Assembly: GCA_963971425.1 (NCBI GenBank)
Contig: OZ020524.1
Location: 10,977,845-11,041,844 of the forward strand
Direction: 5' to 3'
Length of the DNA stretch: 64,000 bases
From: Bryoerythrophyllum caledonicum
Lineage: Eukaryota; Streptophyta; Bryopsida; Pottiales; Pottiaceae
The notes under the pieces were generated by a model. The model was not told the origin of the DNA and ran no database searches. It saw only the letters and a list, made by a program, of their open reading frames with translations. Positions 1-56,330 of the stretch are shown here, one piece after another (the stretch's first letter is position 1; every line of letters begins with the position of its first letter). The position numbers and the translations under genes were made by a program.

Positions 1-1238
1 AGGGCAACGTTGGTTCCGGAGATGAAGGACTCACGAAGCCCTCCGTCCCCTGGGTAATATATAAAGTGGGGGTATGAAACCAGGGTAGCGTTTGTGTAGC
101 GACCGCGCCCCTCTCAGCTACAGCGTTGGCAACATCCACCATTCCAGCCCGATCTGTGATAAACACACACCTGGATAACGGACCCTCCTGAACTGGTTAT
201 CATCCTTATGCTCCATGGCTTGCAGCGTACGCAAAACCTGTTCCATGATTGAAAAATCAGGTTTTCCTTTCTCTTTGCGATTGACAAAGCAGTACACCAT
301 AACCACCGTTGCGTCCTTCTTTGTCCATTGCAGCATCTGGTCACTTCCCAACAGTAGAATCTTTGCCAGGTCTCCCGATTTCCTGTTCATCCAGGCGGAT
401 TTATATTTCGCAGAGAGCGACGATCCGGAAGATGTTGGAGCGCTCTCAGCTCGATTCTTCTTGATGGCCTTCTGGTGATCGAAGAGCATCTTCAAAATAG
501 TCGGAAAGTCATCCTCCTTGTTTGAGGGGGCTAAAGCGGATCCTCGCTTCAAGAAGAAGCGCTCTCCAGCAGGGTCCTTAATAACCTTCTCAAACCACGT
601 TTCGATGGTGGCTTCGGTGACCTTGTACTCCGCTGCTACCCTGACATAATCATCCTCAGAATACGAGGCTTCCTTCAGTGTCTTACACCTCAGGGGCTTC
701 TTACAGAAGTAGTGCATAAACTCATTCTTGATGAGTCTATGCTTCTTCTCAGTCTGACACGCCTTCTCAAGGCCCTGAAGAACGAGTACCTTCTTAGCCA
801 ACTTCGTCAACTTCACCGAGACTTTCTTCGCCATCACCAACTTCGCCATCTTCTCGATGTCACTATCCCACATGAAATAAAGTGGCATCAAGTCGTTCTG
901 CTTTAGAGCCCTCGCCTGGTATCGCTTCTGCTTCAAACGCTCTTTCCTGGACCTATCCTCGTTGTCCTCAACGTCATCTGCAGAGTCCTCGTCAACACCT
1001 GAGACAAAGCTCGAAGTAATCCTGAATGCGTGGGGAAGAAGTCCAAGTATCCAGCTCTCCTCGATCTATAACCAAATCTGGAAAATTGGCTCCGAAACAA
1101 ACAGAAGCGGATATTTCGGGATTCCTGTGTTGCTGTCTTCAACGATCTTTGAATCCGAGTTGGAAAACAGTGCCAGAAGTTTGTCAGACCAGGCCTACAA
1201 GGATATCGGGAGTGAGAAGTGAAACACAATAATTTGGA

Positions 1239-1306
1239 GATAGTAGGATCCTACGATCCTGACTACCATGTGGTTAATTGAGTTGGGATCGTAAGATCCT
1301 ACGATC
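1239..1306. repeat. Two GATC-type 20-bp palindromes in intron 3 of the ParB-like gene
   Basis: Copies at 1239-1258 (GATAGTAGGATCCTACGATC) and 1287-1306 (GATCGTAAGATCCTACGATC). They lie in the short intron 1195-1375 on the minus strand and belong to the same family as the arrays at 2.8-3.3 and 7.4-7.8 kb. Confidence 0.9.
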
Positions 1307-2797
1307 AGTTTATACCTTGTATATGAATCGGTAAGTCACACATTAACGTGATGGGTAATGTATAAAGTGACTCACCTTGAACTCATTGGAGTGCGCCAAT
1401 CCATTCTTGGATGGAGCTGGACTGCCGGCTGAAACCCAGCTCTTACGCGCTAGACCTAGAAGGGTAAGATAGTTGCCCTCTGATCTAACGCCAGCAAGAT
1501 CTTGGTTGAGGACCCTTGAATAGTATAGCATTAAGTTCCAGTCCTTGGGATCCTGCCAGACGATTGTTATGATGAAGCTCTTGGCATCTCTTTCATCTTC
1601 TTCCGAGAGACTACCCTCCTCAATGAGGACTCTGTGCGCAGCCACGCAATGCTGTCCGCCTATAACCACATAGTGTGTGTTTGGGCCGATGTCCTTGAAA
1701 AACTCGTATGCATCGTGTGGCACGTCCTTGAAATCTTCTTTCCGGACTGGATAATGTCCCTTCACTGGCATCACGTACAGATGCTGCAGTGATGCCTGAA
1801 ATGGCATCGTGCGCTTCTGGTCTATGAGCTGTAATACTCGCTTTTTATCCAGTGGTCGATAAACAACAGTACCGGCAGGAGCTCGGTGAAGACGGTCAAT
1901 GTCTACTACCAGATCAGCGGGGCTCTGCGGGGACACCTTCATTGGCTTCTTACCAAAAATATGGAGTTTGGAGAACTCTCTTTCGTACAGAGTCCTCACA
2001 AGCTGCAGCTCTTTTGCGGTTTTCCCTACGACGGTCTTGCTTGTCATCCCCACTGCCTTCGCTAGTGTCAGCTCGTCCACCTTCGGGTCCGACTTCTTCC
2101 TCTGTGACTTCTTCTTTGGCGGCCCCTCCACCGCAAGAAGTGAAGACAACTGCTTCTTCTTAGGAGGTGTAGGCGGAGCTGCTTTCTGTCGGTCTCTATT
2201 GTACGAATCTCGATTCGCCTGCAGCTCCTTCCAGCCTTGCACAATCCTTCTGACATCGGGATTAAAATTCGATATAGTGAATCCCCAGTCCTTGACCGAT
2301 TCGTTTAGTGCAGGAACCAAACCTACTTTGTCAATGACTAAGCCATACACCCTGGAACAGCCCGAACTCGCCACAAACTCGGAGATGACAATTACAAAAA
2401 TGGTGGCGGTCAGGTGCACTAACTCTAGTACTTCCATGTTCATCGTTGATAATTTGTATGAAGGACCTCCAGGAGCTGCGGCATTTGTAATAGCTAACAC
2501 TGGCGCAATCAGAATGTTTTTTTGCTTGCGATCAAGCGTCCAATGAAGACCCCATTCCACAACTTTGTCGGCCATAAAGAAAGCGGTGGGCTCAGGATCA
2601 CTAAGTAGATTACATTCTATGTTCCTCAGCCCACACGAAACAGCATCATAGAGGTTCACAGGACACCAGTCGGGGTTCACGTCTTCGAGTTCGATGATAT
2701 TTTCCCTGACCAAACCAATGCAGAAATTTAGTAGTCAGAAAAGAAACTCAGGTGTCAACGGTTTGCTTTCAAATCACGGGCAAGCATCTAACCGAGG

Positions 2798-3265
2798 ATC
2801 GTAAGATCCTACCATCCTAAAAGGAATGGATAGTTCATACAGAACTTAGGGGGATCGTAAGATCTTACTATCCCATTCAACAATGGATACAGAAGAAGTT
2901 GTGATAACTAGAGTACACTGTGAAATGGATCGTAGGATCTTACTATCTCCGAGGGGACCTTTGGTTCAAGCAGAGCTGAGGGATTGCAAAAGATCATATG
3001 ATCCCTCCAGGGGACCGTAAGATAATACGATCCTGAACGGGATTGTATAATCTAACGATCCTGACTGGGATCGTAAGATCTTACGATCCTGAAATGGATC
3101 GTATAATCTAACGATCCGCATGGGGATCGTAAGATCTTACGGTCCTCAAGGGTGTCGTAAGATCTTATGATCTCGAAAGGGATCGTATGATCTCACGATC
3201 CTTATGGGGATCGTAAGATCCTACCATCTTCATGACGATGGTAGGATCTTACGATCCCCATGAGG
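2798..3265. repeat. Array of about 13 GATCGTAAGATCTTACGATC palindromes in a long intron
   Basis: The consensus GATCGTAAGATCTTACGATC is its own reverse complement and holds three GATC sites. The first copies are 50-75 bp apart; from about 3,010 on they recur every 27-29 bp, separated by short G-rich spacers. Copies vary mainly at the centre (AAGATCTT, AGGATCCT, ATAATCTA). Variants often keep base pairing between arms. The array lies in the 1.36-kb intron (2706-4063) of the minus-strand ParB-like gene. The regularity suggests tandem amplification of a binding site. Confidence 0.93.
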
Positions 3266-3639
3266 ATCGAATGAACTTCAGGTGCACCTCAGCACCAATG
3301 TACAACTTATGATAAGTTTATGTGCATTTACATGTACAATAGATCTACATTGTATCGATTGTGAAAAGTTTGCATACCATATACATAACCCTAAATTGCA
3401 TATAAGACTACAAGGGATTAACATACGTATCAATAAAATTCGATGAGTGTTATGACATTCATGCCATACTACAAGGCTTGATAATCTGAGGATGAGTACC
3501 AAAGCTAGAATACCATTCACATCATTTAACAGAGCTTGTATACCAGAGCATGGAAAGCCTTAGTAGAAAGTCATTGAAAAGATTGTACATATCTAGCAAT
3601 CTTTACCTAAATCCTAAAGCTGAAACATTCAGCACACAC

Positions 3640-3995
3640 TACGCACTTTTTAAACCTAACATGAAAACCTGAATCTGACAATCATTCATAACATTCAACG
3701 CACCTTGTAAACCTAACACGAACACCTGAATCTAATTATCATTCATAACATACTACTCACTGAAAAAACCGAACATGCCAACCAGAATCTAACAATAATT
3801 CATAACATACCACACACCTTGTACAGTTTAAACCTAACATAATAATCTCACTCAGACAATCATTCATAACATACAACGCACCTTGTAAACCTAACACAAA
3901 CACCTGAATCTGACAATCATTCATCACATACTACGCAACTTGTAAAACTAACATGAAAACCAGAATCAGACAATCATTTGACATTATTCATATCA
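3640..3995. repeat. Minisatellite, about 58-60 bp unit, six degenerate copies
   Basis: Repeated phrases CAATCATTCATAACAT, CACCTTGTAAACCTAACA and ACCTGAATCTGA recur in order about every 58-65 bp. The array is inside the same intron of the minus-strand ParB-like gene as the GATC palindromes. No coding potential is seen. Confidence 0.75.
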
Positions 3996-4855
3996 TACTA
4001 CAAATCATCTAAACCAGAACGCGAAAAAGAAAAACTTAGTTCATTGAAAGGATTGAAACCTACGGGTCACTCCAGTCGCTTGCATTGCTTGATCGGCCTG
4101 TCATCCTCGTGAATTGGTTGCCCTACACGCTACACAAGACGTCGTGTTAGAAGCTCGTGAGTCACAGCAATACCACCTATTCAATGTCTAAAAAACATCG
4201 ACAGTTGAAGAACTCCAAACAACTACATTCTCCTTCCGAACATCCTCAGTTGGACAAAGACCTAAAAACACCGAATTTCTAATACATATCAACTGACCAG
4301 AGTTTCTTTGAAGAAATTCTTACCTCGAAGTATTGTTTCTTGCAATGCGCCGCACTCTTTCGTAACGTCGCGTCCGCCAATCGCACCGGTTTGAAGTTGA
4401 AACTACTTTCACACCGCTCACACCGCTCACACACGCGCATACAGTCACGGTAATAACACTCACAAAACAATACTCACAACAACTCACGAAAAACAAAACA
4501 AGAACCTGAAGGAAGAAACCGAAAGTGAGTCGAAAACAAGAACCTAAAGGAAGAGGGGAGGAGGGAGGGGGAGAGACATCGAGAAGTGTAATTGATGGTC
4601 GGACAACTCCTCCACGACGGCTGAGTTGCTGTCTACATCAAGCTCTAATGATGCTTCGACTCATCATTACTATACGGTGAAGACTAATACGTCTAATAAG
4701 GAATTCAATTTTAATTCAGAGTTTGGAGCTGAAAATTAAATTAAATGACAAGTTCTTTAGACTTCACTTCGTATGATATTCTTGCACTACACAAGCTCTA
4801 AATCTCTTACCATTGTCTTAAGCATGAGATTAGTTCCCTACACACCAATTTTTTT

Positions 4856-5588
4856 GATTCCACTTCTTTCTAATCAATCTTTCATTCTATTTCTTTATTC
4901 TATTTTTTGATTCCACTTCTTTCTATTCAATCTTTCATTAGACTTATTCTTTATTCTATTTTCTTATTCCACATCTTTCTATTCAATCTTTCATTCTATT
5001 TCTATATTCTATTTTCTTATTCCACTTCTTTCTATTCAATCTTTCATTCTATTTCTTTATTCTATTTTTTGATTCCACTTCTTTCTATTCAATCTTTCAT
5101 TAGACTTATTCTTTATTCTATTTTCTTATTCCACATCTTTCTATTCAATCTTTCATTCTATTTCTATATTCTATTTTCTTATTCCACTTCTTTCTATTCA
5201 ATCTTTCATTAGACTGATTCTTTATTCTATTTTCTTATTCCACTTCTTTCTATTCAATCTTTCATTCTATTTCATTATTCTATTTTTTCATTTCACTTCT
5301 TTCTGTTCAATCTTTCATTCTATTTCTTTATTCTATTTTCTTATTCCACTTCTTTCTATTCAATCTTTCATTCTATTTCTTTATTCCATTTTCTTATTCC
5401 ACTTCTTTCTATTCAATCTTTCATTAGACTTATTCTTTATTCTATTTTCTTATTCCACTTCTTTCTATTCAATCTTTCATTCTATTTCTATATTCTATTT
5501 TCTTATTCCACTTCTTTCTATTCAATCATTCATTCTATTTCTTTATTCTATTTTTTGATTCCACTTCTTTCTATTCAATCTTTCATTA
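4856..5588. repeat. T/C-rich minisatellite, about 53-bp unit, about 13 copies
   Basis: The unit contains TTCTATTCAATCTTTCATTC followed by TATTTCTTTATTCTATTTTC and TTATTCCACTTC. Copies are nearly identical, with alternate variants carrying ATTAGACTTATTC. The longer pattern repeats as pairs or triplets of units, which implies recent expansion. It sits between the two divergent genes of element A. Confidence 0.92.
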
Positions 5589-5599
5589 GCACTCAAGGA

Positions 5600-6054
5600 A
5601 TTGGCAATACAGACATTTACTTTGTGTTGAAATTTATTGTTATTGAAGGCTAAATTCAACATGATCATTGTTAAATCAAATTTCACATTCATGGTCTAGG
5701 AATTGATGTATACAATAGTTATAATTCTCTATAATTGTGTTGAGCTTGATCCACGGACACATGACAATTTTATTTTAGATCATTAGTGAACCTAGGTTTA
5801 GGGTTGAGAAATTGCAAAATGGTCATGTTATTTACATATATGGTGTCATATTTAAGCATGATAAGCTTTAGATATTGAAATGACCCCCAAATGAAAGATT
5901 TTAGTTGAATCTCCAATGCAAAGGTGTATGTCTTGCTATATTCTAGTACATTTATTGTATATTTAGTGTAAAATACGTGAATGTCTTATCCAAGCTCAAG
6001 GAATCATTTATACAAGGATTTCTAGGATTACCCTAAACCCTGAATTTTAGTCCA
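5600..6054. other. Unannotated AT-rich intergenic DNA
   Basis: I see no open frame, repeat or motif that I can support here. It lies between the T/C-rich minisatellite and the telomere-like stretch. Confidence 0.5.
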
Positions 6055-6375
6055 ATATCCTAAACGTGGAACCTCAAAAACTGAACCCTAAACTCTAAAC
6101 TTGAACCCTAAACCCTAAACCCTAGGACCCTTAATCCCAGGACCCTAAACCCTAGGACCCCCAACCCTAGGACCCTAAATCGTAGGACCCTAAAACCTAG
6201 GACCCTAAACCCTAGGACCCCAACCTAACCACCATGAACCCCAAACCCTCAGGCTAAAAACCCTAAACCTAAATCTCTAATCCTCGAAACCTGAACCCCG
6301 AACCTAAAACCCTAAACCTCGAACCCTAAACCTGGAAGCTTTAGTCTGTTATCTTGTACCCTAAACCCTGAACCT
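6055..6375. repeat. Degenerate CCCTAAA telomere-like (interstitial) repeat
   Basis: Many CCCTAAAC, CCCTAGGACC and AACCCTAAACC units occur over about 320 bp. The core matches the plant-type TTTAGGG telomere repeat read from the complementary strand, but it is mixed with GGACCC variants. It is an internal, diverged tract, not a functional chromosome end. It lies between the two divergent genes of element A. Confidence 0.75.
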
Positions 6376-6379
6376 AGAA

Positions 6380-7390
6380 CCCTGAACTATTTACCTAGTC
6401 TAATAGGTTAATGATTGCAACCATGACGAATTGTCGTATGTTCATGATTACTACTGAAACACGTGTGTTCTTCATGATCACTAGACGTTCCTACAATTCA
6501 AGAACAATTTCACTAAAATATTTTATCTTGTCTCCGTTGTTGTCATTTTCCGTCTTGGAAATAATTACATTCGAAGTGGCACTCGTACAGCTCTCCACGT
6601 CCTTGAAAATGATTGTGATTCTATCCCCGCCAAGGATTCAACCTGTTCTTGATGAACTTCCCGCTCTCTTTAGATCAAGAATAGGTTGCTCTGGTTTTAG
6701 TGTTCAAGCATTATGAGTTCATTTCCAGCAGAGTTAGAGTCTGAGAGAGTTGTATTTGCCCAAGAACTGAGAGCTTTGTGTTTGTTTTGAAGATACTTGG
6801 AGTTTGAGAGCGTCAGAAATGCGGTATCGTCTTTGTGTTTAGTCGAGCTTGGGCTTCACCTACTTCGACACCTCTTCGTCATGTTCTGTCAAGCTTAGGT
6901 AGCGAGCTTTAAGCTGTAAGCTCATTTTAACTTTCAAGTCAATGTGAGCGTCACAGTCACGTCGATCTGAGCTTCTCAAGTTGATCGAGCGCTTCATTGC
7001 TGCCCCGCTGCCAGTATTGATCCATCTCTCAACGGTTTCATCACAATCTACGGTACTATCTCCATCCTCCACTTTCTACACATTAGGGTTTTCAAATATC
7101 TTGGAAATGCAAGTGCCGCGGTGGTTTTTAGAGTTGATACTGTTGTAAGTGAGTCAGTATCATAGATTCTAAACTAATTCTAATCGTGAAAGTGCTGCGG
7201 TGGTTTGTAAAGTATTTGCTGTTTCAAATTAGTCTATATCATATTCAGTAAACTACTCATACTTGTGGTAGAGTCAACTTTTGCCATTGCTTAAATGAAC
7301 TAGTTCAGTAGCTATTATTGTGTTCGTAAACGTACTTTCCGTACAGTCATGATGATTGTACGATCTTGGGTGGTCCTATGATAATATCGG
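6380..7390 (+). other. Probable 5' region of the DDE-like gene, exon structure unresolved
   Basis: This interval precedes the motif-rich intron of the plus-strand gene. A phrase near TGCCGCGGTGGTTT recurs about 75 bp apart (7,117 and 7,192), suggesting a short tandem duplication. An upstream exon must exist, because the recognised exon starts right after an acceptor at 7,838-7,839, but I could not choose a convincing one. Confidence 0.3.
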
Positions 7391-7393
7391 ATG

Positions 7394-7790
7394 ATCGTAG
7401 GATAGTACTATCCTTGATGATTGGTCAGGGGTCATGTTAAGATCGTATGATCCTACGATCTATTTCGTGGTGGATGAAAACGGGCTTTGAGGGGAGCCGT
7501 GTAATCTGGAAGATCGTAGGATCTTACTATCACCGAGGATCGAACTCGGGTTCTGGAATGATCGTAGGATCTTACGATCTGTTTGGTTCGTTATCTAACG
7601 AGGAATGTGGATGTTGTAGATATTCTCGGATGATCGTAGGATCTTACTATCGCCTAGGATCGTTTAGGAGTTACCGAACAATCGTAGGATCTTACGATCG
7701 ATTTGTTGATACTCTGGGGTGATCGTAGAACCTGGAAATCAGGGGTGAGCTTGAAATCATGGTTCATCGTAGGATCTTACGATCTTGTGT
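7394..7790. repeat. Array of about eight GATC-type palindromes upstream of the DDE-like exon
   Basis: Copies near 7394, 7442, 7512, 7561, 7633, 7681 and 7764, with a partial copy near 7721. Perfect forms include GATCGTAGGATCTTACGATC arms. They lie just before a splice acceptor (TTCATCAG, ending 7839), so they are probably in an intron of the plus-strand gene. The motif family is the same as in the minus-strand gene. Confidence 0.9.
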
Positions 7791-8676
7791 CATCAGGCTT
7801 GATCTGAACATTTGTCTCTTTCGAATTTTTATTCATCAGGAGGTCGAAGACCAGGGCTGATCAAAGGTTTATTGGATCCTTTTCTTTCCGGTTGCCTTCA
7901 ATGTCTTCAAGTTGCGGACCGGACGATGAGTTTACTGATTCTGCGAGCGTTAACCCTGATGGTGAAGCCAATGATGAGTGTAACCGATATGAACCGGGCA
8001 TGACTGCTTTACTTTGCTACCCTGGACATGGCGTCGTTGGACATGCCATTGTCATTGAAGCCGTTCCTACTGGGTGTTGGCTTGGCGTCGACATTGATCT
8101 CATGTTCGCGGAATTGACTCTTCTTCGACCTGTTGAGATACATGCACGGGCGCGAAGTCTACTCATTCATCCAATGCAGGAAGGCATCTCTGTCTTGGCT
8201 GAATCGATTGGTAGAACAATTCTCTGGGAGACAGCAAGCTTTGTCCTGACTTCGGACTTAGGCAAAACGTCTGGGTCGACAAACACTCCTCCTTTTGTAC
8301 CTCAGGCAGAGTGGGTGGGGAAGGTTGTGAAGCGGTTTAACGGTGATGGGGATCTTATGGCCTCTGGTCGCATTAATTGCGTATGTCCGGATGAGCCGTT
8401 CGAAAACAGTACTCTGGGGGAGGGGAACATTGGCGTCACAGTATTCGACGTTTTTATAGGAGATCCTAGTGATATTATGAGTCATCGAAGGTGGCTCATT
8501 TCCGACTGCACATTCGAAGGAGGACATAGTCTTAGCGATACGCTCGACCATTTCAATCGTCTTCCTGACGCACCAGACGCGAATAACACGCAATTAAGCA
8601 ATTTTGCACTCACCAAATAAAAGTGCACTTAGGTACAACGGCGGCCATTGCGAGCAAAAGTGACAAAATTGAAGAA

Positions 8677-8745
8677 AAAAAATGTTTTTCAAAGAAAAAA
8701 AAATGTTTTTCAAAGAAAAAAAAATGTTTTTCAAAGAAAAAAAAT
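8677..8745. repeat. Short tandem repeat, about 22-bp A-rich unit, three copies
   Basis: Three copies of AAAATGTTTTTCAAAGAAAA lie near the left end of the 3.7-kb element. It codes for nothing plausible. Confidence 0.9.
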
Positions 8746-8749
8746 GAGC

Positions 8750-9700
8750 TTTTGCAACAAATATTATGTACAATCATGGTTGTTAATATTGGAAGCGAAT
8801 TTTGGGCATTTTCAACTAATTTTTGGCGGCCCTTCGTTAATACTAGATAAATGTGTATTTAATATAGTATCACAATATTTCAAAGATAGATTTGAAGGAT
8901 TGTAGTATTCAAACAAGTGTAATCACAAAAAAATATACTTTATGCAAAGGTTGGCAGTTGATTAAAAGATATTCTAACGTAGTACATAATGCATACAATG
9001 GTGGAAACTAAATGTAGATGCTCTTACAAATGGACTTAGCACCAATAGTAAAAACACCTTTACTCTATAGGATTAATGACATAACGTCTTACATCACTCT
9101 TAGAATATACTACTCTTACACATACACTATATAGCAATTACCATACACAACTAGTATACTCTCATAAAGGCACACTATCTACTCCATTGATTTTAGGGCT
9201 GCTTGCAAACGGTCGTCATCGATAGCTTTGGTTTGCATTGCAACATATTGTAGTATGTGAGCTTTTGCCGATTGAAGAATGTGAATCCTACTTTCAGCCT
9301 GCACTCCAAATACCATGCGCTTTCTCCACCCGCTGGCCCCGGACATGGTTTTATTGTTGAATTAGAAATAGACAACTCAACACACGAAAAGGCACCAAGT
9401 AATATGTTCAAATTGTCAAATTCAAAACAAGTTGAATGTTTACATATGATGGGAAACATCAACTACACTAAAATTGAGAATTAGTGTTAAGCACAGTAAA
9501 TGATCTAAAATCTTAATAAGTTTTTACTTGTGATGAATGTTTCTACCAACAATGTTTATAATGATTCCCCTCATTGAATAGTATGAATAGTTGTGCTCAT
9601 AGTAAAAACCTTCATCAACAGTAAAAACTTACAGCAGTTGCAAATTAATTAGTGTGGTTTCACTAATTCTCAATTTTAGTGTACTGAGTGACATCAAAAT
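8750..9700. other. AT-rich interior of the 3.7-kb insertion
   Basis: No supported gene. Short frames on both strands lack any family signal. Confidence 0.5.
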
Positions 9701-9904
9701 CACTACAACTGAAGCCGTATGTAGTACAGAGTATGACACTGAGTCTGTGGGTACAACTACACAAATCAGCCCAGAAACCCCAACCCTAGCCGCCACAGAT
9801 CAAAACCCTAGCCGCCGCCACTAGGAATCCAAACCCTAAACTAAAATATCCTAGCCGTGTTCCCATGAGATCCTAGACGATCCCATGGAGTTCCATAGAC
9901 TAGA

Positions 9905-9922
9905 GGTGTGCGCGCGCACACC
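9905..9922. repeat. 18-bp GTGTGCGCGCGCACAC palindrome, left copy
   Basis: GGTGTGCGCGCGCACACC is a perfect palindrome of alternating purine and pyrimidine at its core, the kind of sequence that can adopt Z-DNA or extrude as a cruciform. Its partner lies at 11,324-11,343. Confidence 0.9.
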
Positions 9923-10285
9923 CCCACATACTGGTGTTCCTCCATCCGGCACATCCGAGATTTGGGACGACAATTTGTGGAAGCGTTGTGAAAACGGATT
10001 CTGCAGCTGATAATCCTCGTAGATCCTCGTAGCTGTTTGGACTCGCGCGAGAGAGGAAAAGTGCGGGCTCTTAAGCGAAGAAGCACCGGAGCTGCGGAGA
10101 AGGAGTCTCCTGTCAAGACACTGTCGTGACACTGTCGAGGAGAGAAGGAATCCTGTCGAGACATTGTCGAGAGAGTGTAGTATAGACTATGACACTGAGT
10201 CTCTGCAGACAAGCAAGAGCTGCGGAGAACCAAGCGGTGCGAACCAAGCGGTTTATCATGTATGACTACAAGAAGAAGGAGCTGA

Positions 10286-10325
10286 ACCTGGAGGCGTATG
10301 AAGGAGCTGAACCTGGAGGCGTATG
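10286..10325. repeat. Tandem duplication of a 22-bp unit
   Basis: GAAGGAGCTGAACCTGGAGG is repeated directly, with CGTATG between copies, inside the GC-rich block. Confidence 0.85.
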
Positions 10326-10486
10326 GCACTCCACACCCGCTGGACATTGGAGCAAATTATGGTGCCATTGATATTCCAATGGACGTAGTGGGCGGACAAG
10401 GAGATCTCTACGAAGGAGGGAATCTGCGAAGAACAAGGAAATCTACGAAGAACGAGGAGTGGGGCACAGCTTTACAGCAGAGGAAG

Positions 10487-10588
10487 GAGACAGGAAGGTG
10501 GCGCGTGTGGTACACAGGAGAGGCGTGTGCCTGTCAAGACAGGAAGGTGGCGCGTGTGGTACACAGGAGAGGCGTGTGCCTGTCGAGA
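10487..10588. repeat. Tandem duplication of an about 51-bp unit
   Basis: Two near-identical copies each read GACAGGAAGGTGGCGCGTGT, then GGTACACAGGAGAGGCGTGT, then GCCTGTC. Related shorter fragments (GACAGGAAGGCGCC, GAGATAGGAAGGCGCC) follow. It is part of the GC-rich block in the 3.7-kb insertion. Confidence 0.88.
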
Positions 10589-11323: not shown

Positions 11324-11343
11324 GGGTGTGCGCGCGCACACCC
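11324..11343. repeat. 20-bp GGGTGTGCGCGCGCACACCC palindrome, right copy
   Basis: Perfect 20-bp palindrome matching the copy at 9,905-9,922. Flanks of the two copies are not otherwise alike. Confidence 0.92.
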
Positions 11344-13002: not shown

Positions 13003-13022
13003 TGGTAGGATCCTACGATCGC
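13003..13022. repeat. GATC-type palindrome in an intron of the DDE-like gene
   Basis: ATGGTAGGATCCTACGATCG lies within the 257-bp intron 12882-13138. It shows that the motif is placed in introns of both element A genes. Confidence 0.85.
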
Positions 13023-41100: not shown

Positions 41101-41101
41101 G

Positions 41102-45287: not shown

Positions 45288-47575
45288 TAGGAAGACTGAA
45301 ACGCAAAAGAGAAACAATTCCTACCAATGTTCTTGCAACATTCTCAAGTTCCATACATGCTCTCGTTTACAAGGACGGATAAACAATGGACTGGTTTAAA
45401 TATCCCATGGCGGCGTATACAACCAATAAAATTATGGTACAAAATAAAATTATTAGGTAGAAATAGAACTGAACGTCCTAATCGTGAGATATGAACGACA
45501 CCAACAATAAATTATACCGACATTATTGGCTAGTTATATTTTGAATTACATCATGGAGAGGTGCGCCGGTACCGGCGCCTTGCGGTCAGTTAAAAGTTCA
45601 AAGTAACTTACAATTACAGGAGATTGTCAAATCTGATTCTAAATGGAAGTGAATAAATAATAGAAAAGATCAAATTTAGCATCATAGATAATAGATGATT
45701 GGCCAGAATTATAGGCTGTAGAATTATTAATTAGTACAGGTATTATATTAACATCTCTACAAAGTGGTCATAATAGTTAGTCCTCATTTCAAGTTAAAAG
45801 AAACGATTCTTGGTATTTGAAAATTGCATTGATATTTATATTAAACCAAACAAAAACCTAATCAAACGGGAATTATATTAATAAATAACCATATAATAGT
45901 TTTACAGAAAATGCAAGCATGTACAGAAACGATCATGTGCATGATGGACATGATGTGCGTATATTTGGAGTTTGAGGTTAAGCATAGAGAAATTGAGAAT
46001 TCATAACTGCTATGTTTGAATTCCCTCCTCTTATTGGTCATTCAAATCGGCGGTGTATGACTATCCAATCTTAGCTTTCCAAATGCACAGCGTCTAATAT
46101 CCCATTATGATTGTTAAGGCATGTTTCGACATTTGAGCTTATATGGGCTTCGAGTTATTGTCTTCCATAAATTCAAGCAGTAGTTCGTGCAGATGTCCTG
46201 GATAGAAAGAGAACAGTACTGAATGGATGCCATCAATTGGAAATCCATTAGTCTTAGTGGAAGGGATACCTGTGCAGTCGTTGAACTATAACAATGATTT
46301 GCCATGTGATATTCTCACTGAGTCGATAAGATATATTGCAGATGCTCATAAAAGTTGTCCCCGCAACACCTGCTCATTTAGTTGAAGGAAAGAAGAAGAG
46401 GAGAAAACGCAGACTCCTCTTTTCAAGTAGCAAGCAGTTGAGGAAGGCAAGGATGAGAAAACGCAAGGCCCAGATTGTAGAGGATGACTTAGGAGATACT
46501 CCACGTGTCTTATCTTTTGAGAGCGGTCCTTCTTTGAGTTTGCCAAGTATGGGCGAGGGCAACATCCAACACAACATATGGATGTGAACATGACGGACAA
46601 GGAGAAGGACGAGGGCAATCATCACTCTGGACAATTGGTACGTGTTCTCATTGATACTTCAAAAATTAATAGGAAAAGTTTAGTTTCTTGGGAACTGTCA
46701 ATCGTTCTATTAAAAACATCTATTTTGTGTTTTCAAACTCATTGAATTTGGCATTGAACAATAATTTAGAACTTAAGTGAATGTTGATATGCATTCAAAC
46801 GAATCTTCTTTTCCGTTATAGAGACAATCACTGTAGTTTTCATTTTTATTTTTTGTTCACTTTCCCTCACTTTATTTATTGTTTTAATTTTTATTATACT
46901 CTCCCTCTCGGTCTCCCTCTCCTTCTTTATTTTTTAAAATTTTTATTTGGATTATCCTTGAATTCAATAAGCGTATACTATTAATTAATAGTAAGAGAAT
47001 CCCTTTGCTTGGATTAATTATTTGCTTTTAAGAGTTGTCCATTGCTCCATCCCCCTCTCCCCCCCTTTTATCATAGTTGAAAAAAATATTCTTAATTATC
47101 CTTCTCCCCCCTCTAAACCTTCTTTTTTAGTAGAGATTGTCGTTTACTCCATTGTAGATTTAAATCTATATTTTTTATTTCAGGATCGTCCCTCACTTCC
47201 ATCTTCTCCCTCTAATTGATGATTTTATATTTTGTTTTTGAATTGACCCTCTCTCCTTTCAATTTTATTGATATAGAAATAAAGATGAATATAAAAATTT
47301 GTTGATACCTCCTAAGACTTCTCGGGAGGTCACAGTCCTACTCCGAATGGAATCAGTATCACCCAGTTCTGCTCCGGCTTAAAGTCGCTTGACTTGGATG
47401 TCGTTCGACTTGGATGTCGTTCATCCATCAGAGTGTGAACTGAAGTTCATGTTATTCCACGCGTCCACGCTTCTACTTTCTGTGTGAACTTTAGAAACCC
47501 TCCCACGTTTATTGGATCTGGAGTTACAAACCCTTCCACAAACCCTTTCGCTACCTCTAACTTCTGTAGATTGTG
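45288..47575. other. Intergenic region between the two divergent genes of element B
   Basis: Presumed shared promoter space. One palindrome, GCGCCGGTACCGGCGC, lies near 45,570; it is a perfect version of the motif repeated in the first intron of the next gene. Tracts at 46.8-47.2 kb are T-rich. A small basic frame lies at 46.3-46.6 kb. Confidence 0.6.
46336..46587 (+). CDS. Small basic open frame, possible exon or captured fragment (low confidence)
   Basis: An 80-codon frame has a lysine/arginine cluster (KKKRRKRRLLFSSSKQLRKA) then an acidic, Ser-rich stretch. The first part could be a nuclear localisation signal. A GTACGT donor-like site follows at about 46,637. No domain is recognised, so it may be a lost exon of a third gene. 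Confidence 0.25.
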   Translation: MQMLIKVVPATPAHLVEGKKKRRKRRLLFSSSKQLRKARMRKRKAQIVEDDLGDTPRVLSFESGPSLSLPSMGEGNIQHNIWM

Positions 47576-50500
47576 ATGCAGGCCGATCAGCCTTCAATTG
47601 AGTCAAGTGAAGACGCTATCAACGACGGAGATTGGGACGCCATGAACTTGAGCGCGGTGAACGAGGACGAGGATGGCGGCCCAGTTGAGCTTGAAAACAG
47701 CCCGCAAGCTGCCGACTCGGCAGCAGGTAAGTATCACGATTACTTCACGTTTCTCAGGTTCTAGACTTTGTGTAGTTGAGCACAACCTCATAATCTCGCA
47801 TGGTCGGGAATTGAGTTTGACGTTGTCGAAATCCTTTTCTTTGATTTGCGGATTCTTCGAACTGGCTCGAAATGGGTTCGCCGGTGTCGGCGGGGGTCAC
47901 AGACCACTGCATAAACGGTTTCATGTGACGTCCACTTGATCGCCAAATTTTAGAGATGGACAGGTCGCCGGTGCCGACGTAGGTCGGTGTGAACCTTCCA
48001 TGTTTCCATATAACACTTGAACGAGGGAACTTCGGTGCGGGCTTGGGTATGTGGATGAGGTATGTAGCTCGTCGAATGTAGGAGAAATGGTGTCGCCGGT
48101 GCCGGCGAGGGTCGGTGTGAGCCCCCCACGTTTCCCAGGAACAGTTGACCATGGGAACTTCGGTGACGGATTGGGTTTAAAGTCAGGTATGCAGCTCGCC
48201 GAATCTTGGAGAGAAGGTGTCGCCAGTGCCGGCTAGGATCGTAGGGGGACTCAGGGCAAACCAAGGCAGGGCCTTTTCCAATGCGTCCTTGGCTACTCGT
48301 TTAGAATCCCACAAGTCTCCATCCCAAAAGTATAACGGTGCTTGAGAAATGCCCACCTCGATGTTTTCCCTGATTCTGACTATTGCATATCCCTGACAGT
48401 CATCCGAACTCAGAATTACTGCCTTCGGATCATCATCTTTGACGGCACACCAGTATTCACGGTACGTTGCATTTTGGTCGAGGTTGATGGTGTACTATCT
48501 CTCTGGTTTCAGATTTATGTGTAATCTGTATATACCCGTCCTCGCCGTAAATACCTCCTCCCACTTCCAAATTACATACGGGTCGCAGAGGAACTAGTCG
48601 GTCCAACAATCACAAGCACCCAAGGGTTTAGTTTCAGGGCTGAACCATGTTGAGTTTGAAGTTAGGGTCTCTTGTTGGTGCCGCCGATTCTTGAATTTTT
48701 GGTGTCGCCGGAATCGGCTGGGGTGTTGAAGGGCCATCCACGATTCCAGGAAGACGAGCATGGGAGGACTTCAGTGCCAGCATGACTTCGGTCTGAAGCA
48801 CGTTGAGGTGTTGATGTTAAAGTGACGCCGGTGCCAGCTAAGGTGTCGCTGGTGCCGGCTGTGGGGTCGCCGGTGCCGGCTGCGGTTCAGATCCTGGTTT
48901 TTTCAGTCGCCGATTATCAAGTGGAGGTGTCGCCGGTGCCGGCGGAGGTCATGAGAGAGGTTTTCGGTGCCAGCATGGATTCACAATATATTCTGAAGCA
49001 CGTCGAAATCTGATTTTGAGGTGTCGCCGGTGTCGGCTTGGGTGTTGAAGGGCCTTCCACGATTCCAGGAACACGAGCATGAGAGGACTTCAGTGCCAGC
49101 ATGACTTCGGTCTGAAGCACGTTGAGGTAGTGATGTTAAAGTGACGCCGGTGCCAGCTAGGGTGTCGCCGGTGCCGGTTGGGGGGTCGCCGGTGCCGGCT
49201 GCGATTCAGATCCAAGTTTTCTCAGTCGCTGTTTATCAAGTGGAGGTGTCGCCGGTGCCGGCGGAGGTCGTGAGAGAGGTTTTCGGTGCCAGCATGGATT
49301 AAGAATATATTCTGAAGCACGTCGAAGTCTGATTTTGAGGTGTCGCCGGTGTCGGCTTGGGTGTTGAAGGGCCTTCTACGCTTTAAGAAACACTTCTATT
49401 AGTGGTCAACGGTGCCGGCGTGGGTTAAGTATCAAGTCTGAAGCACGTCGTTGTTTGATGTAAAAGTGTCGCCGGTGCCGGCTGGGGTGTTTGAGGGCGT
49501 CCCACGCTTTCAGGAATACTCGTAAGAGATCACGGATTCAGCATGGGTTCAGAACATGGTCTCAGCATGGATTCAGAGTATGGTCTGAAGCAGGTCAGAA
49601 GCACGTGGGTTGAAGTTGAAGTGTCGACCATGTGTCGGCGTGGGTTGAGAGGAATTTTTTAGCTCTGAGCTTTCTGTACAATTCAAGACTTTATGCAGAA
49701 GTTTGCGGCATTATTGCAAGGACACTTCGGTGAGCGACACTCGCGGCTGGGGTGAGTTTCAGGGCTGGTCTCTTATAAATGCCGCCGAATCTAGAAATTA
49801 GGTGTCTCCGGTACGGGCTGGGTATTCAGGGCCATCCACGATTCCAGGAATACAAGCGAAAATGCACTTCGGTGTAAAGATGACTTCGATCTGAAGCACG
49901 TCGAAGTGTTAATGTTATAGTGACGCCGGTGCTAGTTGGGGTGTCGCCGGTGCCGGCTGGGGTTCAGATCTTGGTTTTGAGGATCTGTGTTTTAAAGTGG
50001 AGGTGTCGCCGGTGCCGGCGGGGGTGGCGAAGGTCCCCACATGCTTCTCAGATTCAGGAGATAGGAGGGGTCGTGTCCAGATGCCACGACAACCTAGCTG
50101 CCGAGCACTCGTACATGAGGTATGAGTTTTGAGAGCATCCACGGCTTGTTAAGCCTTGTTCCTAGAAGGACTTTTTCAGCAGCCCAAGTTCTTGCAGCAA
50201 TATGCGTGATAGCTTCTGTTCCTGTGTATACATCCTTGAATATATATGAACTTTTTTTCGTGTTGAAGAACTGTTTTTCGTGTTTTTTTCGTGTTGAATA
50301 TCATTTTTGATGTTGTGCAGAGTGGAACCGTCACATAAAAGCATGCTGGTGGAGGTATTAAAAAGCAAGGATGAGGTGGTGAGTATTTTTTATGCTTCTA
50401 ATGGCAAGCTGTTAAGCTCACGGATCGCTGTGAAAAGGGGCGCCGGTGCCGGCGTGGGTCGTGGACCAAAGATTTTACGATTCGACGTGACAGACATGTG

Positions 50501-53500
50501 CATGCACATGTTTATGTTGGGACCTTATTCACGCACGACCGGACATGACCCTCTGCATGCACGTCGGAATGTTGAAGCGAATATTGAGACAACGAAAAGA
50601 TTTTGTTCTCTATTGAACGACTAGACTATTGCTGTGGGGATGCGCCATTGAGATTGCCCAACGATGATGATCACAGAAAGTTGTAGGTCTGAGGTAGAAG
50701 CCTGTGCCGAATGTTACTGATCACCGAATGAATGATCACGAAGCAAGTTAATGGTCTGCTGGAGTGCTCCATCCAGATCGCCGAATGATAATGATCAGAG
50801 CAAGTTAAAGGTCTGAGGTAGAAGGTCTACGCTGTGCACAGAGATCCAGCATGTTCAAATCACTCGACGGGGTTGGCCGGTGTTGGCGGGGGTCTTTTTT
50901 GCGATTTTTTATTTTTGATATTTTTGCTCACCTTATGCTGCGGCTTTTAGAAGGCACCGCATCGTGCTTAAGGTACAAGCATGCATGCACGTCCGGATAT
51001 GACCCTCGAGGCCATGAGCCATGAGGTATTCAAAGTGGACCTGATATAATTTAGTTGGTTTCCATGCATGAGGCGAAAGGTTTGCATGCAGCAACGCATC
51101 TTGCTTTGTTGAGCCTTCATCGTGCTATGTTCGTAGCCTTCATCGTGCCTTGTAGAGCAGCGCATTTAATATTGTGTGGGCTTTCATTGGACAAGTTCTC
51201 AAAGTTGTTGTGGTTCTCACAGTTCCGAAGGTTGACTGCCCTAGTTTCGTGTGTGACGGCACTTATGCTCGTGCACATCATTCCAAACCTTTGTGTGAAG
51301 ACGCAAGAAATATCTTTGATGCTAAAGGCCGCTGAATTGGTCCGCAAAATGAGATTGATCGGAAACCGGAACTTAATTGGAAACCGGTCGGGACTCGGCA
51401 TGCTCAGATGCATACCCATGAGATCCGAAGAACACTAGATCGACACCTCATATTGAACACCACCCTCATAGAACTGGGCTTGACACTTTCACTCGAGGCG
51501 TGTGCCTCATGGATGCCAGCTCTATATGGATAAAATTTTGAACTAAGGAATGCTCTTGAAACGGATCTTGTGAACGTTCTAGTGCTAATACAATATCTAA
51601 CAATCCAGCAGGTGTTCAGTACTTCCCCTGCAGTATCCGACTAGTATCCAGGGGTCCACTACCATCCTGGGTTATGTATCATCCCCGGAGACCAAAGTTA
51701 GTTCTTTTATGGAGACGGGGAAAATTTCATGCCTGCTCCATGGAGTGTATTTTTTTTTGCTTGGAGGGGGCCGCCGGTGCCGGCGGGGGGTTCAATGGTG
51801 CCAGCTTAGATTCTGTATAGTTATATGATGCCAAGATATCATTAACCACCGTTGGATGCGCATGTTATTGGCCACAATTATTATTGACTATTTATGCATT
51901 GATGGATTGCAGATGATGACCCTATGGACAGTCATCCTCTTGACGAGGACAGTATCTCAATGGAGGACTTGAATAAGGAGATGAAGGCTTTGATCTCAAA
52001 GGAATCTGTGAATATTGCTTCATGTTTGGACAATTTGAGGTTTCAGCCAAGGACAAAGTCAAAGTTACAAATTCCACTTTGTCGTATGATATCATTACCG
52101 ATTGTCAGGCCCTATTTGAAAAACGACGTCATGAATCTGGCCTCCCATTTTCTGAGTAATGGATATATGGAAGGCAATGGGGTTTTCTATGTCGCCTTGG
52201 AGAATCATGAAGGTAAGGTTGTTCCTGTGACCACAGATGTCACTGATACTTGGAGCCCTCACTGGGAGGTGGCCAATGCACTTTTTGAAGAACACCTTCT
52301 TGAAGATGAGGATTTGAAGTGTTCCTCCAACAAAATGTTTCACGTGTGGGACGGGAACCATCGCCTTCAAGCCTGGATTCCAATTATTAATGAAGATCAC
52401 TCTGAGGACCCGGCCTGGCATTATGCCGTGGAATCAATTATTCTGGATATTAATGGAGCAGTTGGTCCTCTTCTGAGTGCACTCCATCAAGTGAATTGGT
52501 ACGTTTCTTTTTTTATTTATTTGTATTTCTTGGAGTCTTTATCTTTTGGAGTCTTTATCTTATATTCGGTGCAATTAATAGTTACATGTCAATTATAAAT
52601 TTCAGGAGGAATCAGAAATCGCATGTGACCACCAATCTGGTCCACAAACTCTACAGAATTAATAATATTGGAGCACAACCCCTTTCTTTCTTCCAAGGTC
52701 AAGTGAGTCAAAATGAAATTGGACTTGCTGAATCAAAGCAAAAATCAAAACAGCGAACTTGGTATACTCTTACTTTCGATGGACTTAATAAAGTCCTGAA
52801 CCAGGTATGAACTTCCCTCAATATCCCTTGGTATCATCAAGTTTATCAATCTTAATTGTGAATTTGTATATTGCAATTTTCCTTAACTTTGGGTTGAGTT
52901 ATTTAATTGTACAGCAAGAGTTGGGCGAGGCAGCAGCTAACGCACAGATCAGATTCCACGAAAAGTATCCAGACCCTTCTGATTGGACTTCAGAGAAGGC
53001 TGCTGACTTCATATCGACAGCTGTGAACAAAGTCAAGAAACAATGCTTCATTGAGTTGAAGAAACAAGTGCCAATTGCCGACCCTAAGCACGGACCTGAT
53101 TTTCTACATCAAATAAAGCTTCATTATGAGAATAATGAGGTGCCTGAAATGACTCAGGAGAAACTATGGATGTTTTCTACCTCGGTGATGGAGTCTCATA
53201 TCAAAACCAAATGGCTTGAAAGGTGGAACTCACCCCCTTCTCTTCGTATTCAATTGAAATTTCCAAAACCACGTTTTGGAGATGCTGAATTTCCAGAGTG
53301 GCTTCGAAGGGCTACTTGGTGGAGCCAGGTTAGTTCCAATTCTTTGTGTTCATTATGATTGACTGATCTAGTGTCCTTTTCCCATTTTTTGAAATGACTT
53401 CTAATTGTATTTGCTTATTTGTTTTCTTTCAGTTGGCAGTGGAATTCGAGAGACTTTTTGATACCACCGTTGCGGATTTAGGAGTCACAATTGACTATCA

Positions 53501-55681
53501 CCCAGATGGAGAGGACCCCATTCCATCCATCTCCGAATATGTCGAGCAAATGCGAATCCAACTATGGGATTCTGCATTCTTTCATGAGTTCAAAGTTGAG
53601 AAAGGAGTTCACAAGAACTTTTTGATTGATCAGCAGGTGGGATTTATGCCTGCTATGCAGCGTGTGCTATATCGGTATTTTAAATATATCCTTTATCCTA
53701 CCAGGGCAATTTCCAAGTCACCAGCTTTTTTTGCCACTTGGCTGGATGTGGACAGCGACGATACCATGATATCTGATAATATCCAGAAGTCCTGGAATTC
53801 CTCTCACTGGGAGAGATGCGGCTGGTACCTAGATTGTCCCATTTCAAAGCCTCCACGCTTTGACATCCCAATCAGAGATCGCATTGAACCATCATTGATT
53901 GGGATTCAAAAGGTCCCAGCCGTAGTAGTAGTTCCACCTATTATTTCGAAAACAAAGGGGACAAAAAGGAATTCGACTTGGTCTGCAAAAAATGCCAAAG
54001 ACACTACTGTTTTGGAGGCTCCTGTGCTTGTGGAGCAATTGGATGATATCAATGAGGTTATGCCTTCGTCTTCTAATGTCAGTTATCCTCAACCTTCTCA
54101 AGCAACTACTGTTGTTCAAAGCCAATTACCTCCTTCAAGATTGCCCTTGCAACATGTGAGGGCAAAGAAGACATCCCGAATTTCGAAACCTGCATCCTCC
54201 ACTTCTCTTCATCCATCGTCGATTGTTTTGTTGGAGCAGACTTCTATCTCAGAGATTCTAGAGACGGGGCCCTCTCATTCGGTGCTTTCAAAAATGCATG
54301 CATTAGTAATTGAGGTATATAACTGTCATTGCATTGATAATGTGTTGATTTGATTTAAAATTTAAGTTTGTTATAAGTCATTAGGGTAACTAATTGTTCT
54401 CTATTTTGTAGGGGAAGGGTGATGCCGCAGGCCCTGCACGATCAGGAGCTTGTCCGCACAGTGGTGTCGATTTTATAATCTTCGATGTTCCAGAAGGCCT
54501 TCCGATTCCAGGTCTTTCTGATTCATCTATAGACATTCCATCTTGGAATGTTTATAAAAAATCGGATGTTGAGGCGTTTTTTGAGTTTGCCGATGCATTT
54601 CTCCACAAAGATGGAGGTCTTTTGGTTTTTCTCCCAGAATCTCCATCGATTAGGTTGGATGTGAGAACTTATGCTGCATCATACGAGTTCAAGATTTTAA
54701 AGGATTGGTGGGGTGTTAATGAGCTTCGGCTAACTTCTCCAATTAGTTCTAATAACACTGTAAGTGAGGGATATTCTAATTCTTGTCATATATGTTTTGC
54801 ATCCATGTTTGTAAATTTGTTGATTAAATTTCGAATGTTTTATTTCAGACCCGCCGGTTTCGAATTTTTCTTTTCATCCGTGAGGATAAGGCAGCAAGTT
54901 CCTTCTCCATTCATGTTGATCCTGAACTAGCCAAGGTTGGTATTAATCTAAAGGAAGATGACATTCTATTCAACTATACATCCTCTGAGTCTCAAGCCAT
55001 GAATGGTCCAGTACCATGGAGAGGAGCTCGTGAAAAGGATGAAGGATTTTTGCAGATGTTTGTTGAAGCCTTCACAACTCCAGGCTCAGTAATTTTGGAT
55101 GCCACTGCTGCTACAGGTACAACACTCATAACTTGATGTGATTGTCATTTTTCTAAACTCATCAGTATTTCAATTTTTCTGAATCTTGCTAAATTTTTTA
55201 CTTGGTTTAGGCGCTTCTATTCGAGTAGGAAGCAGGCTACATCGGCATGTGATTGGCTTTGAATCTGATCCACTTATCTTTGAAGCCCTTCTTAGTCCTC
55301 TTCGACAAGTGTCACCAAGTTCACCAATTCCACATACACTAGTTGATGCTTTTGATGACGATGAGGTCCCGGTTCGCCGCATGGCCAAAAAGAACCGTTT
55401 AAGTAAGTAAGTTCATTGTTTCAGTGTTTTCTCCGTAACGATATTTCAATCCTTTTACAAAATATAATTACTTAACTATTTTTTTATTTGGCAGATTGAT
55501 GGACTCCGCGTATTCTCCGCCAAAGTCATTTACTCTTCCATCATATGCAGAGACTATTGCTCGTGCCTATGCTTCATTGCATTCTCCGCCGTTAGTTCAA
55601 AGACATCGTGGTTTCAACCCCGATGTTCATAAATTTCTAGATGTTGAGGCACTAGAGGGTAGTGAAAGTTCTTCTACATAG
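47576..55681 (+). CDS. ParB/Srx-like plus permuted DNA-methyltransferase-like protein, intact, nine exons
   Basis: Exons 47576-47726, 51913-52498, 52606-52804, 52915-53328, 53433-54314, 54412-54759, 54849-55116, 55211-55406 and 55495-55681 all have GT-AG borders and matching phases, giving 1,076 aa with no stop. Residues 1-80 are acidic. Residues about 110-250 resemble a ParB domain ([11 protein letters not shown] at 195-205, then LSALHQVN). A helical middle (250-620) and a low-complexity linker (640-740) follow. The C-terminal domain has the order of permuted beta-class DNA methyltransferases: [10 protein letters not shown] (764-773, in the place of DPPY/SPPY), LVFLPES, then [16 protein letters not shown] (935-950, the SAM-binding motif) and VIGFESDP. 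ParB-methyltransferase fusions are known in phages and bacteria. The altered motif IV may mean weak or no catalysis. Intron 1 (4.2 kb) holds the motif array. Confidence 0.8.
47880..51790. repeat. About 25 copies of a GTCGCCGGTGCCGGC motif in intron 1
   Basis: The core CGCCGGTGCCGGCG is a near-palindrome (perfect if the central TG is TA, as in the copy at 45,570). Copies lie near 47880, 47967, 48092, 48220, 48823, 48845, 48866, 48931, 49022, 49143-49185, 49248, 49342, 49468, 49922-49944, 50008, 50440, 50873 and 51772, most followed by G-rich or GGTC spacers. None is in the exons of the gene. Dense from 48.8 to 50.0 kb. The intron sequence between copies is otherwise non-coding. Confidence 0.93.
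48700..50030. repeat. Higher-order tandem repeat, about 320-bp unit, within the motif array
   Basis: Each unit runs GTGTTGAAGGGCC, CCACGATTCCAGGAA, CAGCATGACTTCGGTCTGAA, TGACGCCGGTGCCAGCTA, then two or three GTCGCCGGTGCCGGC motifs and TATATTCTGAAGCACGTCGA. Two near-identical units lie at about 48.71-49.02 and 49.03-49.34 kb, with shorter ones after. Confidence 0.85.
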
Positions 55682-56280
55682 ATTTTCTATTGTTGTTGTG
55701 ATCATTTATATGGCCTTAGTTTGCTACTACTGTTCTACTATCTTATTCATATATTTCATACTTTGTTCTTTGGTATCATACACGATATTGTGATTCCCTA
55801 GCCATTATTGCTCTAAAGGCAAATGATACAATTTACACGTTTAACTTTCATAATATCTTGTTTAGGGACATTTTTTAAAAATCTTGTTTTGTAAGTGATA
55901 CTACATACAAATGATGGATGTGTAAGAGGAAATTAAATGCAACATTTGGTTAAATTAAATACAGGCATTGCTAATAATGAACTTCTAAACCATCTCACAA
56001 TTTTGATTTTTCCACGGTAATGGGCATCTCTTATCAGTTTTCATTGTTGTACTTGACTACCTTCGGCTTTTCAATTGCATTTGAACGAGATTTATTCCAC
56101 GGAAATAGGATATATACTTCAACTAACAATATCTAATTTTCCTGTATAATGTAAATATCCTACCACGGTTATAGGATCACGAGACAAAAATTAATTATTG
56201 TACTTGAGAAAGACCCACGACTTTCGCCCCTTAAAGATAACAAAACCGAAAAAATACCAAAAAATAAAAGCAAGTTCTAT
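55682..56280. other. Right subterminal region of element B
   Basis: Presumed 3' untranslated and subterminal DNA of the ParB/methyltransferase-like gene. No frame or bounded repeat beyond the CCACGGTAAT-type phrases. Confidence 0.5.
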
Positions 56281-56330
56281 GCTCACCGCTCACCGCTCAC
56301 GCCGACTGCTCACCGACCGCTCACATGGTC
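56281..56330. repeat. Right terminal inverted repeat of element B
   Basis: GCTCACCGCTCACCGCTCAC opens the repeat on the plus strand; its complement matches 41,051-41,100 with about six differences. Confidence 0.88.

Follow-up and report, generated by a model that had tools for sequence, protein, structure and literature searches.

What does a transposon gain from carrying dozens of copies of a private DNA motif, and does it also encode the protein that reads them? This question is raised by a 64-kb stretch of contig OZ020524.1 (the window, meaning here all 64,000 nucleotides analysed), in which two large DNA transposons were delimited. Element 1 spans the left edge of the window to ~15.9 kb, its left end lying outside, and element 2 covers 15.3 kb (41051–56330) and is bounded by 50-bp terminal inverted repeats (TIRs). 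The initial annotation had claimed that each of them combines its own palindromic array with a ParB/methyltransferase-like protein, encoded in a divergent pair with a nuclease gene, and had read this as a self-recognition or anti-silencing device. The observation is partly confirmed, being real in element 2 and suggestive in element 1, and its interpretation is partly supported.

In element 2, the 12-bp sequence GCCGGTGCCGGC (≤2 mismatches, both strands) has 34 matches compared with 0.91 expected, all of them within 45565–51784. Sites in either orientation at this threshold number 23, with 22 inside intron 1 of the predicted accessory gene and the remaining one 5′ of the transposase. On the forward strand of intron 1, the counts at 0, 1 and 2 mismatches were 10, 19 and 21, against means of 0, 0 and 0.13 in 200 Markov sequences. 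The description as iterated palindromes suits the 20-bp dyad of element 1, whereas the unit of element 2 is directional and ~24 bp long, GGTGTC-GCCGGTGCCGGC-NNGGGT, with an imperfect 12-bp dyad as its central core only. Among 29 forward copies (≤3 mismatches), conservation spans about −6 to +17 (GGTGTC and the 12-bp core, then GGGT after two weak positions) and falls off beyond these limits. Furthermore, the gene-sense form is the closer one in 21 of the 22 intron 1 sites, that at 48707 being the exception. Since the motif is directional and longer than the dyad, the argument that a palindrome implies a ParB protein is not supported.

The array sits within tandem duplications of 126, 128 and 319 bp, which account for part of it. 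In 365 of the 406 site pairs, the 80-base flanks are <45% identical (mean 0.31), yet the mean motif identity is 0.80, a comparison made on sites preselected by motif similarity. Exact or near-exact copies with unrelated flanks are found at 47880, 50442, 50876, 51773 and 45565. Both arrays stand far above chance and, as had been claimed, are specific to their elements: no top array k-mer of one element occurs in the other, and the remaining window has 0–1 copies of each.

The accessory gene of element 2 is a model predicted from the sequence and not from transcripts. It comprises 946 codons and is the sole open GT–AG combination within the searched grid, for which the exon 1/intron 1 sites and the exon 2/3 junction were fixed beforehand, with the end of exon 2 and the start of exon 3 set by eye. 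An extra 3′ exon near 55494–55679 is possible. The protein that the initial annotation placed at 47.6 kb does begin there in the model (47576), but its recognisable parts are instead located at 52.3–55.4 kb. Judged by ORF (open reading frame) strand, this gene and the transposase form a divergent pair; in element 1, the accessory gene and the transposase likewise lie divergently on opposite strands. Here, the annotated nuclease is taken to be the transposase, no other nuclease having been seen. The placement of motif copies in introns and spacers also holds, by the predicted gene models.

To which family the encoded protein belongs is indicated by several searches. Its C-terminal segment matched Pfam N6_N4_Mtase (PF01555) with an E-value of 1.3e-4 and 22.4 bits, under the 26.7-bit cut-off, and the longer protein matched the same family with E 8.9e-4, also under the cut-off; Pfam gave no domain besides this weak match. 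PHROG methyltransferases matched the C-terminus as well (best E 0.0049). With the methyltransferase part as tblastn query, matches to phage methyltransferases in 87 records (best E 6e-4 among the matches listed) and 189 plasmid records (E ~0.01–0.02 among the 40 matches listed) were obtained at E≤1. Alignment by hhalign to nine phage ParB–methyltransferase fusions scored 25.4, which 0 of 60 shuffles equalled (best shuffle 22.2), with a low reported probability of 3.9% and E 0.011. A hidden Markov model (HMM) of the nine fusions placed the ORF carrying motif I second among the window ORFs (E 0.59), the spliced protein being unlisted. In a PDB search with the methyltransferase part, the methyltransferase entries were CcrM (E 0.061), DpnA (0.79) and RsrI (~0.98); the top match, a PPR protein with E 3.8e-5 in which no single stretch passed, was rejected as spurious.

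The catalytic motif of N4/N6 methyltransferases is (D/N/S)PP(Y/F/W). In the element 2 protein, DPPY is altered to DVPE and DPFxGSGT to DATAATGA, the two motifs standing in permuted order, and 6 of the 29 invariant columns of the nine phage enzymes are retained. Judged by family similarity in its sequence, the protein is a relative of the permuted N4/N6 DNA methyltransferases; lacking a (D/N/S)PP(Y/F/W) motif, it is filed here as related to them and not as an enzyme. Its methyltransferase part is probably catalytically dead, since the changed residues in motifs IV and I make catalysis unlikely. Of the ParB/methyltransferase-like character assigned to both proteins, it is therefore the methyltransferase relationship in element 2 that stands; the incomplete gene of element 1 gave no methyltransferase match, and neither protein gave a ParB match at profile level.

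The ends of element 2 carry a second, distinct repeat. The subterminal sequence CCTATTWCCGTGGA starts at 41218 and 41323 on one strand, with opposite-strand copies at 56011 and 56096; with ≤1 mismatch, it has four matches in 64 kb, all inverted and ~320 bp or less from the element ends. At 2 mismatches, it is also found at 56162 (minus strand, inside the element) and at 29219, outside it. Such inverted placement is what would be expected for transposase use, and we therefore infer that these repeats are candidate transposase sites. A distinct subterminal repeat would suit the transposase and so leave the array for another protein. The transposase itself matched nothing in Pfam above the cut-off (best WH_RGF3, E 0.034) and appears Mutator-like by eye only, from CxxH and a SWIM-like CxC..CxH arrangement. 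The claim of unrelated transposases holds, that of element 1 being DUF7869. Element 2 shows neither mark of a Mutator-like element (MULE), namely a transposase profile match and a target-site duplication of ~9 bp, and a search up to 6 bp from its TIR edges gave no duplication of 7–12 bp. The 15-bp sequence TTGCCACTTCCACCA, of which the window holds two exact copies, both flanking element 2, is a possible target-site duplication, though not abutting the TIRs; it is longer and lies farther out than a typical Mutator duplication.

In element 1, GATCGTAAGATC has 80 matches compared with 4.13 expected, 76 of them at or before 15857, and the four beyond are approximately the chance number. The 20-bp dyad GATCGTARGATCYTACGATC (≤4 mismatches) occurs 27 times, always within 1239–15857 and nowhere else in the window. 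On the transposase side, all eight asymmetric copies are in gene-sense orientation, with five more symmetric or unclear, while the accessory side has three sense and two antisense copies among five scorable ones (9 of 14 being unscorable). The window edge truncates the accessory gene, and Pfam and other searches of this incomplete gene gave no match to methyltransferases or to any other family. An ORF at 2–196 (minus strand), considered by eye as a methyltransferase strand, was dropped, being unlisted by Pfam and by the fusion HMM with filters off. As a guess, an upstream transposase exon may lie inside the plus-strand open frame 7808–8617. Between the two genes are also a 53-bp pyrimidine-rich tandem repeat (4848–5587, with 4841–5600 devoid of CpG) and a degenerate AACCCTA telomere-like tract (6084–6332). 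A ~500-bp repeat family, present in both orientations at 11.5–12.1, 16.0–18.3, 19.9–23.7 and 36.8–38.0 kb and ~73–90% identical in the best rows, has copies beside the right end of element 1, which obscure that boundary.

Combined, a self-recognition protein is the most economical reading of the array, the ends and the protein ancestry of element 2. In the reading that we prefer, and to which we give a probability of roughly 0.4, each element would be a large DNA transposon with a transposase gene and a divergent accessory gene, which has multiplied a motif in its own promoters and introns. The accessory product would bind this motif, and would thereby mark its own family alone and protect it from silencing by the host, similar to VANC on VANDAL elements. 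The predicted target of the element 2 protein would be its motif (GGTGTCGCCGGTGCCGGC; unit form GGTGTCGCCGGTGCCGGCTGGGGT), and element 1 may work alike. The element 2 protein would be a eukaryotic relative of ParB–methyltransferase fusions, in which the probably catalysis-deficient methyltransferase part may serve as a reader of DNA or S-adenosylmethionine or as a scaffold. Prokaryotic members of the related families bind and methylate DNA. Given its altered catalytic motif, this protein seems likelier to read or to shield than to mark.

The ParB part of this proposal was searched for separately. In hhalign, the GNHRLQA stretch fell on the GH-R box of phage ParB domains with a score of 17.0, which 1 of 60 shuffles equalled; shuffles that also covered the GH-R columns numbered 6 of 60 for element 2 and 11 of 60 for element 1. 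By eye, the G-H/N-x-R box, a short motif to which no significance is attached, reads DGNHRLQA in element 2 and GGQHCVAAHR in element 1, where the usual spacing is missing. Pfam gave no ParB match in either accessory protein, tblastn of the ParB-like exon gave no phage match at E≤10, and an HMM of 14 phage ParB proteins, run with filters off at E≤10 on 481 ORFs plus the spliced protein, listed neither accessory protein. When the two accessory proteins were aligned to each other by hhalign, the best alignment paired their ParB-box-like stretches, which in view of its score is no more than a hint; 40 of 40 shuffles (first exon of element 1) and 32 of 40 (the other piece) scored as well, so that the similarity is not significant.

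Several results weigh against the preferred reading. The ParB identity of the element 2 protein stays at motif level and is marginal, and for element 1 the hhalign ParB score was equalled by 15 of 60 shuffles. BLASTP found no significant similarity between the two accessory proteins. The structure prediction that the initial annotation had proposed, against ParB/Srx and methyltransferase folds, lent no support to a fold: AlphaFold2 on single sequences gave mean pLDDT (predicted local distance difference test) values of 36.7 for element 2 and 31.2 for element 1. In addition, an in-frame TAG at 1066–1068 separates the open stretches of the element 1 accessory gene if the by-eye splice sites hold, and this copy may therefore be dead, or may have further introns. 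CpG retention, considered as a sign of hypomethylation, was set aside as uninformative, as CpG is part of the motifs and their masking acts unevenly: observed/expected ratios changed upon masking from 1.02 to 0.49 in array A, from 1.35 to 1.10 in array B and from 0.93 to 0.84 in intron 1 of element 2, compared with 0.56 in the region of accessory exons 2–7 and 0.82 in the transposase region.

Two other accounts of the arrays deserve serious attention. The transposase or a TNPA-like cofactor might bind the arrays, which would then serve transposition and autoregulation, with the accessory protein unrelated to them. In CACTA elements, subterminal and internal repeats are bound by such a cofactor, and in element 1 the transposase has copies on both its 5′ and its 3′ side and one in a probable intron, those with a scorable asymmetry all running in the sense of that gene; the copies considered are those within the window, which lacks the left end of the element. 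The separate inverted repeat at both ends of element 2 speaks against this account, as does the one-sided position of its array inside the accessory intron, and we regard it as unlikely on balance, if still a genuine competitor. Much the same weight is given to the idea that the arrays arose by minisatellite-like expansion or act in cis within the promoter and introns of the element itself, where host factors or nothing at all would read them, and that their pairing with the accessory gene is a coincidence. Tandem repeats are common in the window (44 rows, many overlapping), and the duplications that hold the element 2 array would multiply any sequence. However, the motif copies keep their sequence amid unrelated flanks, with conservation ending at about −6/+17, which speaks against this account.

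Far less probable is active self-marking, in which the accessory protein would methylate its own array at adenine or N4-cytosine and so label the element as self, as has been proposed for the ParB–methyltransferases of algal transposons. The domain order of the phage ParB–methyltransferases and the three GATC sites in the consensus palindrome of element 1 are consistent with it, but DVPE in place of DPPY and the few retained invariant columns in element 2 make it very unlikely. The arrays could also be formers of RNA or DNA hairpins or of R-loops instead of protein sites, as their location in probable introns and the sense-strand GC skew of the element 2 array intron, +0.19 and +0.12 (two 2-kb bins, 48001–52000), might suggest. 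Against this, the core of element 2 is centred on 2 bases and extended asymmetrically, and the arms of the 27 element 1 sites form 212 Watson–Crick pairs of 270, compared with a mean of 216.5 on shuffling (a count as high in 1922 of 2000 shuffles). This absence of compensatory change argues against a hairpin, a function that was rejected for element 1, and the dyad suits a site for a dimeric protein; the hairpin account is the least probable of all those considered.

In a bolder reading, plant transposons would have recruited a prokaryotic ParB–methyltransferase that lost catalysis and became a sequence-specific self-recognition reader of arrays amplified in the introns of the element, an anti-silencing system convergent with VANDAL/VANC and independently installed with unrelated transposases. 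Taken as a whole, this scenario is rather unlikely. If private tags are truly paired with private readers, transposons would have solved self-versus-host recognition and escape from silencing more than once. For the ParB–methyltransferase accessory proteins of algae, the noncoding array of the element itself would then become a target that can be tested, and a new protein scaffold would become available for sequence-specific epigenome control in plants.

Table 1. Positions of the features of elements 1 and 2 in the window.
Feature	Position	Strand	Details
Element 2, left TIR	41051–41100	+	50 bp, 88% identity to reverse complement of 56281–56330
Element 2, right TIR	56281–56330	−	Partner of 41051–41100
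15-bp direct repeat TTGCCACTTCCACCA	41029–41043, 56337–56351	+	7 bp beyond left TIR, 6 bp beyond right TIR
Element 2, subterminal repeat CCTATTACCGTGGA	41218–41336 (copies at 41218, 41323)	+	Inverted partners 56011, 56096, 56162
Element 2, transposase region	41629–45320	−	ORFs 43182–45320, 42711–43151, 42160–42729, 41629–42156; exons approximate
Element 2, lone GCCGGTACCGGC site	45565–45576		5′ of transposase ORF; all other element 2 sites (≤2 mismatches) in intron 1
Element 2, accessory gene exon 1 (model)	47576–47726	+	ATG start, donor CAG/GTAAGT, in-frame join to 51913
Element 2, accessory gene intron 1 (model)	47727–51912	+	4.2 kb; contains GCCGGTGCCGGC array 47880–51784
Element 2, accessory gene exons 2–7 (model)	51913–52490, 52915–53328, 53433–54314, 54412–54759, 54849–55116, 55211–55407	+	
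Element 2, accessory gene stop (model)	55408–55410	+	TAA; region 51913–55410
Element 2, ParB-box-like stretch	52341–52373	+	11 residues, exon 2; includes DGNHRLQA
Element 2, methyltransferase-like region	54466–55407	+	Motif IV DVPE 54484–54495; motif I DATAATGA 55098–55215 across intron
Element 1, accessory gene, cut by window edge	1–2734	−	Open exon ~1374–2706, open stretch ~121–1065
Element 1, palindromes, 2 copies	1239–1306		Probable accessory intron; splice sites by eye
Element 1, palindrome array A, 12 copies	2797–3256		28-bp tandem unit, immediately 5′ of accessory exon
Element 1, palindrome array B, 7 copies	7393–7784		Immediately 5′ of plus-strand open frame 7808–8617
Element 1, transposase region, DUF7869	12399–15061	+	Pfam PF25273 E 1.9e-43 on 13331–15061; exons approximate
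Element 1, palindrome, 1 copy	13001–13020		Probable transposase intron
Element 1, palindromes, 5 copies	15084–15857		3′ of transposase

The remainder of the window is eukaryotic in character, with apparently spliced genes and repeats. A plant host is indicated by a copia fragment (Pol_BBD, E 5.6e-24) and by a peroxidase exon at 25910–26398, whose best PDB match is the cationic peroxidase SPC4 (E 1e-21), from the class III family of plants. A retrotransposon without long terminal repeats occupies 57165–63544 on the minus strand. In its RNase H ORF (57789–59537), a PCIF1_WW match (E 6.1e-12, residues 124–257) stands ahead of RNase_H (E 7.1e-14). PCIF1 is a cap N6-methyladenosine methyltransferase; the literature matches listed for PCIF1 with retrotransposon or reverse transcriptase apparently contained nothing on such a fusion. 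Strand bias over this retrotransposon (58001–64000) is marked, with GC skew of +0.52, +0.28 and +0.55 and AT skew of ~−0.31 to −0.34 in 2-kb bins. Searches of viral contigs with the element 1 accessory exon, the 20-bp palindrome, the element 2 protein without exon 1 and the DUF7869 exon found no relatives.

How does this arrangement compare with known systems? TnpA of Spm/En is an element-encoded protein that binds iterated subterminal motifs and has been linked to demethylation. The iterated motifs and the proposed element-encoded binder are similar here; TnpA sites are subterminal, whereas the array in element 2 is intronic and the subterminal repeat is distinct from it. With the nine phage ParB–DNA methyltransferase fusions, the element 2 protein shares the domain order and the permuted succession of motif IV, middle region and motif I, but these proteins have 404–470 residues and an intact DPPY, compared with 946 residues in the model and DVPE.

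The parallel with VANDAL/VANC drawn in the initial annotation proved close. According to the available parts of the reports, VANC21 motifs share a single orientation and are found within tandem repeats, both upstream and in the VANC21 and VANB21 introns (PMC5735166), and a loss of silent marks is triggered when VANC binds noncoding regions (PMC10398659). As far as these parts describe it, element 2 has the same features, namely element-specific motifs in the same orientation, tandem repeats and a location in the accessory gene's own intron, while the accessory side of element 1 is mixed in orientation. The differences are the methyltransferase relationship of the element 2 accessory protein and the DUF7869 transposase of element 1, and anti-silencing would apply here by analogy.

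The literature matches listed (title and start of abstract, with few subscription journals covered) held no other report that pairs a ParB–methyltransferase with a motif array or a plant, and a literal search for the 12-mer gave only apparently unrelated matches. Nearest in protein class are algal transposons. The available part of the published work reports a gene with ParB and methyltransferase domains on the strand opposite the transposase in the Ectocarpus Sola1 transposon, and such accessory proteins from brown, green and red algal transposons, proposed to bind and modify their own element. Element 2 resembles these, as far as they are described there, in having a gene opposite the transposase of a giant DNA transposon, with a methyltransferase-like part; its ParB-like stretch, which lies ahead of that part as in the Ectocarpus protein, is marginal. 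It differs from them in the degenerate catalytic motif, and both elements differ in the other transposases (Mutator-like by eye and DUF7869) and the plant-like host; a paired motif array is not mentioned in the available text, which contains "palindrom" and "subterminal" 0 times each. The accessory protein class and the own-motif arrays are already known separately, from algae and from VANDAL/VANC; as far as our searches show, the new points are that the two are combined, that the catalytic motif is degenerate and that the host is plant-like.

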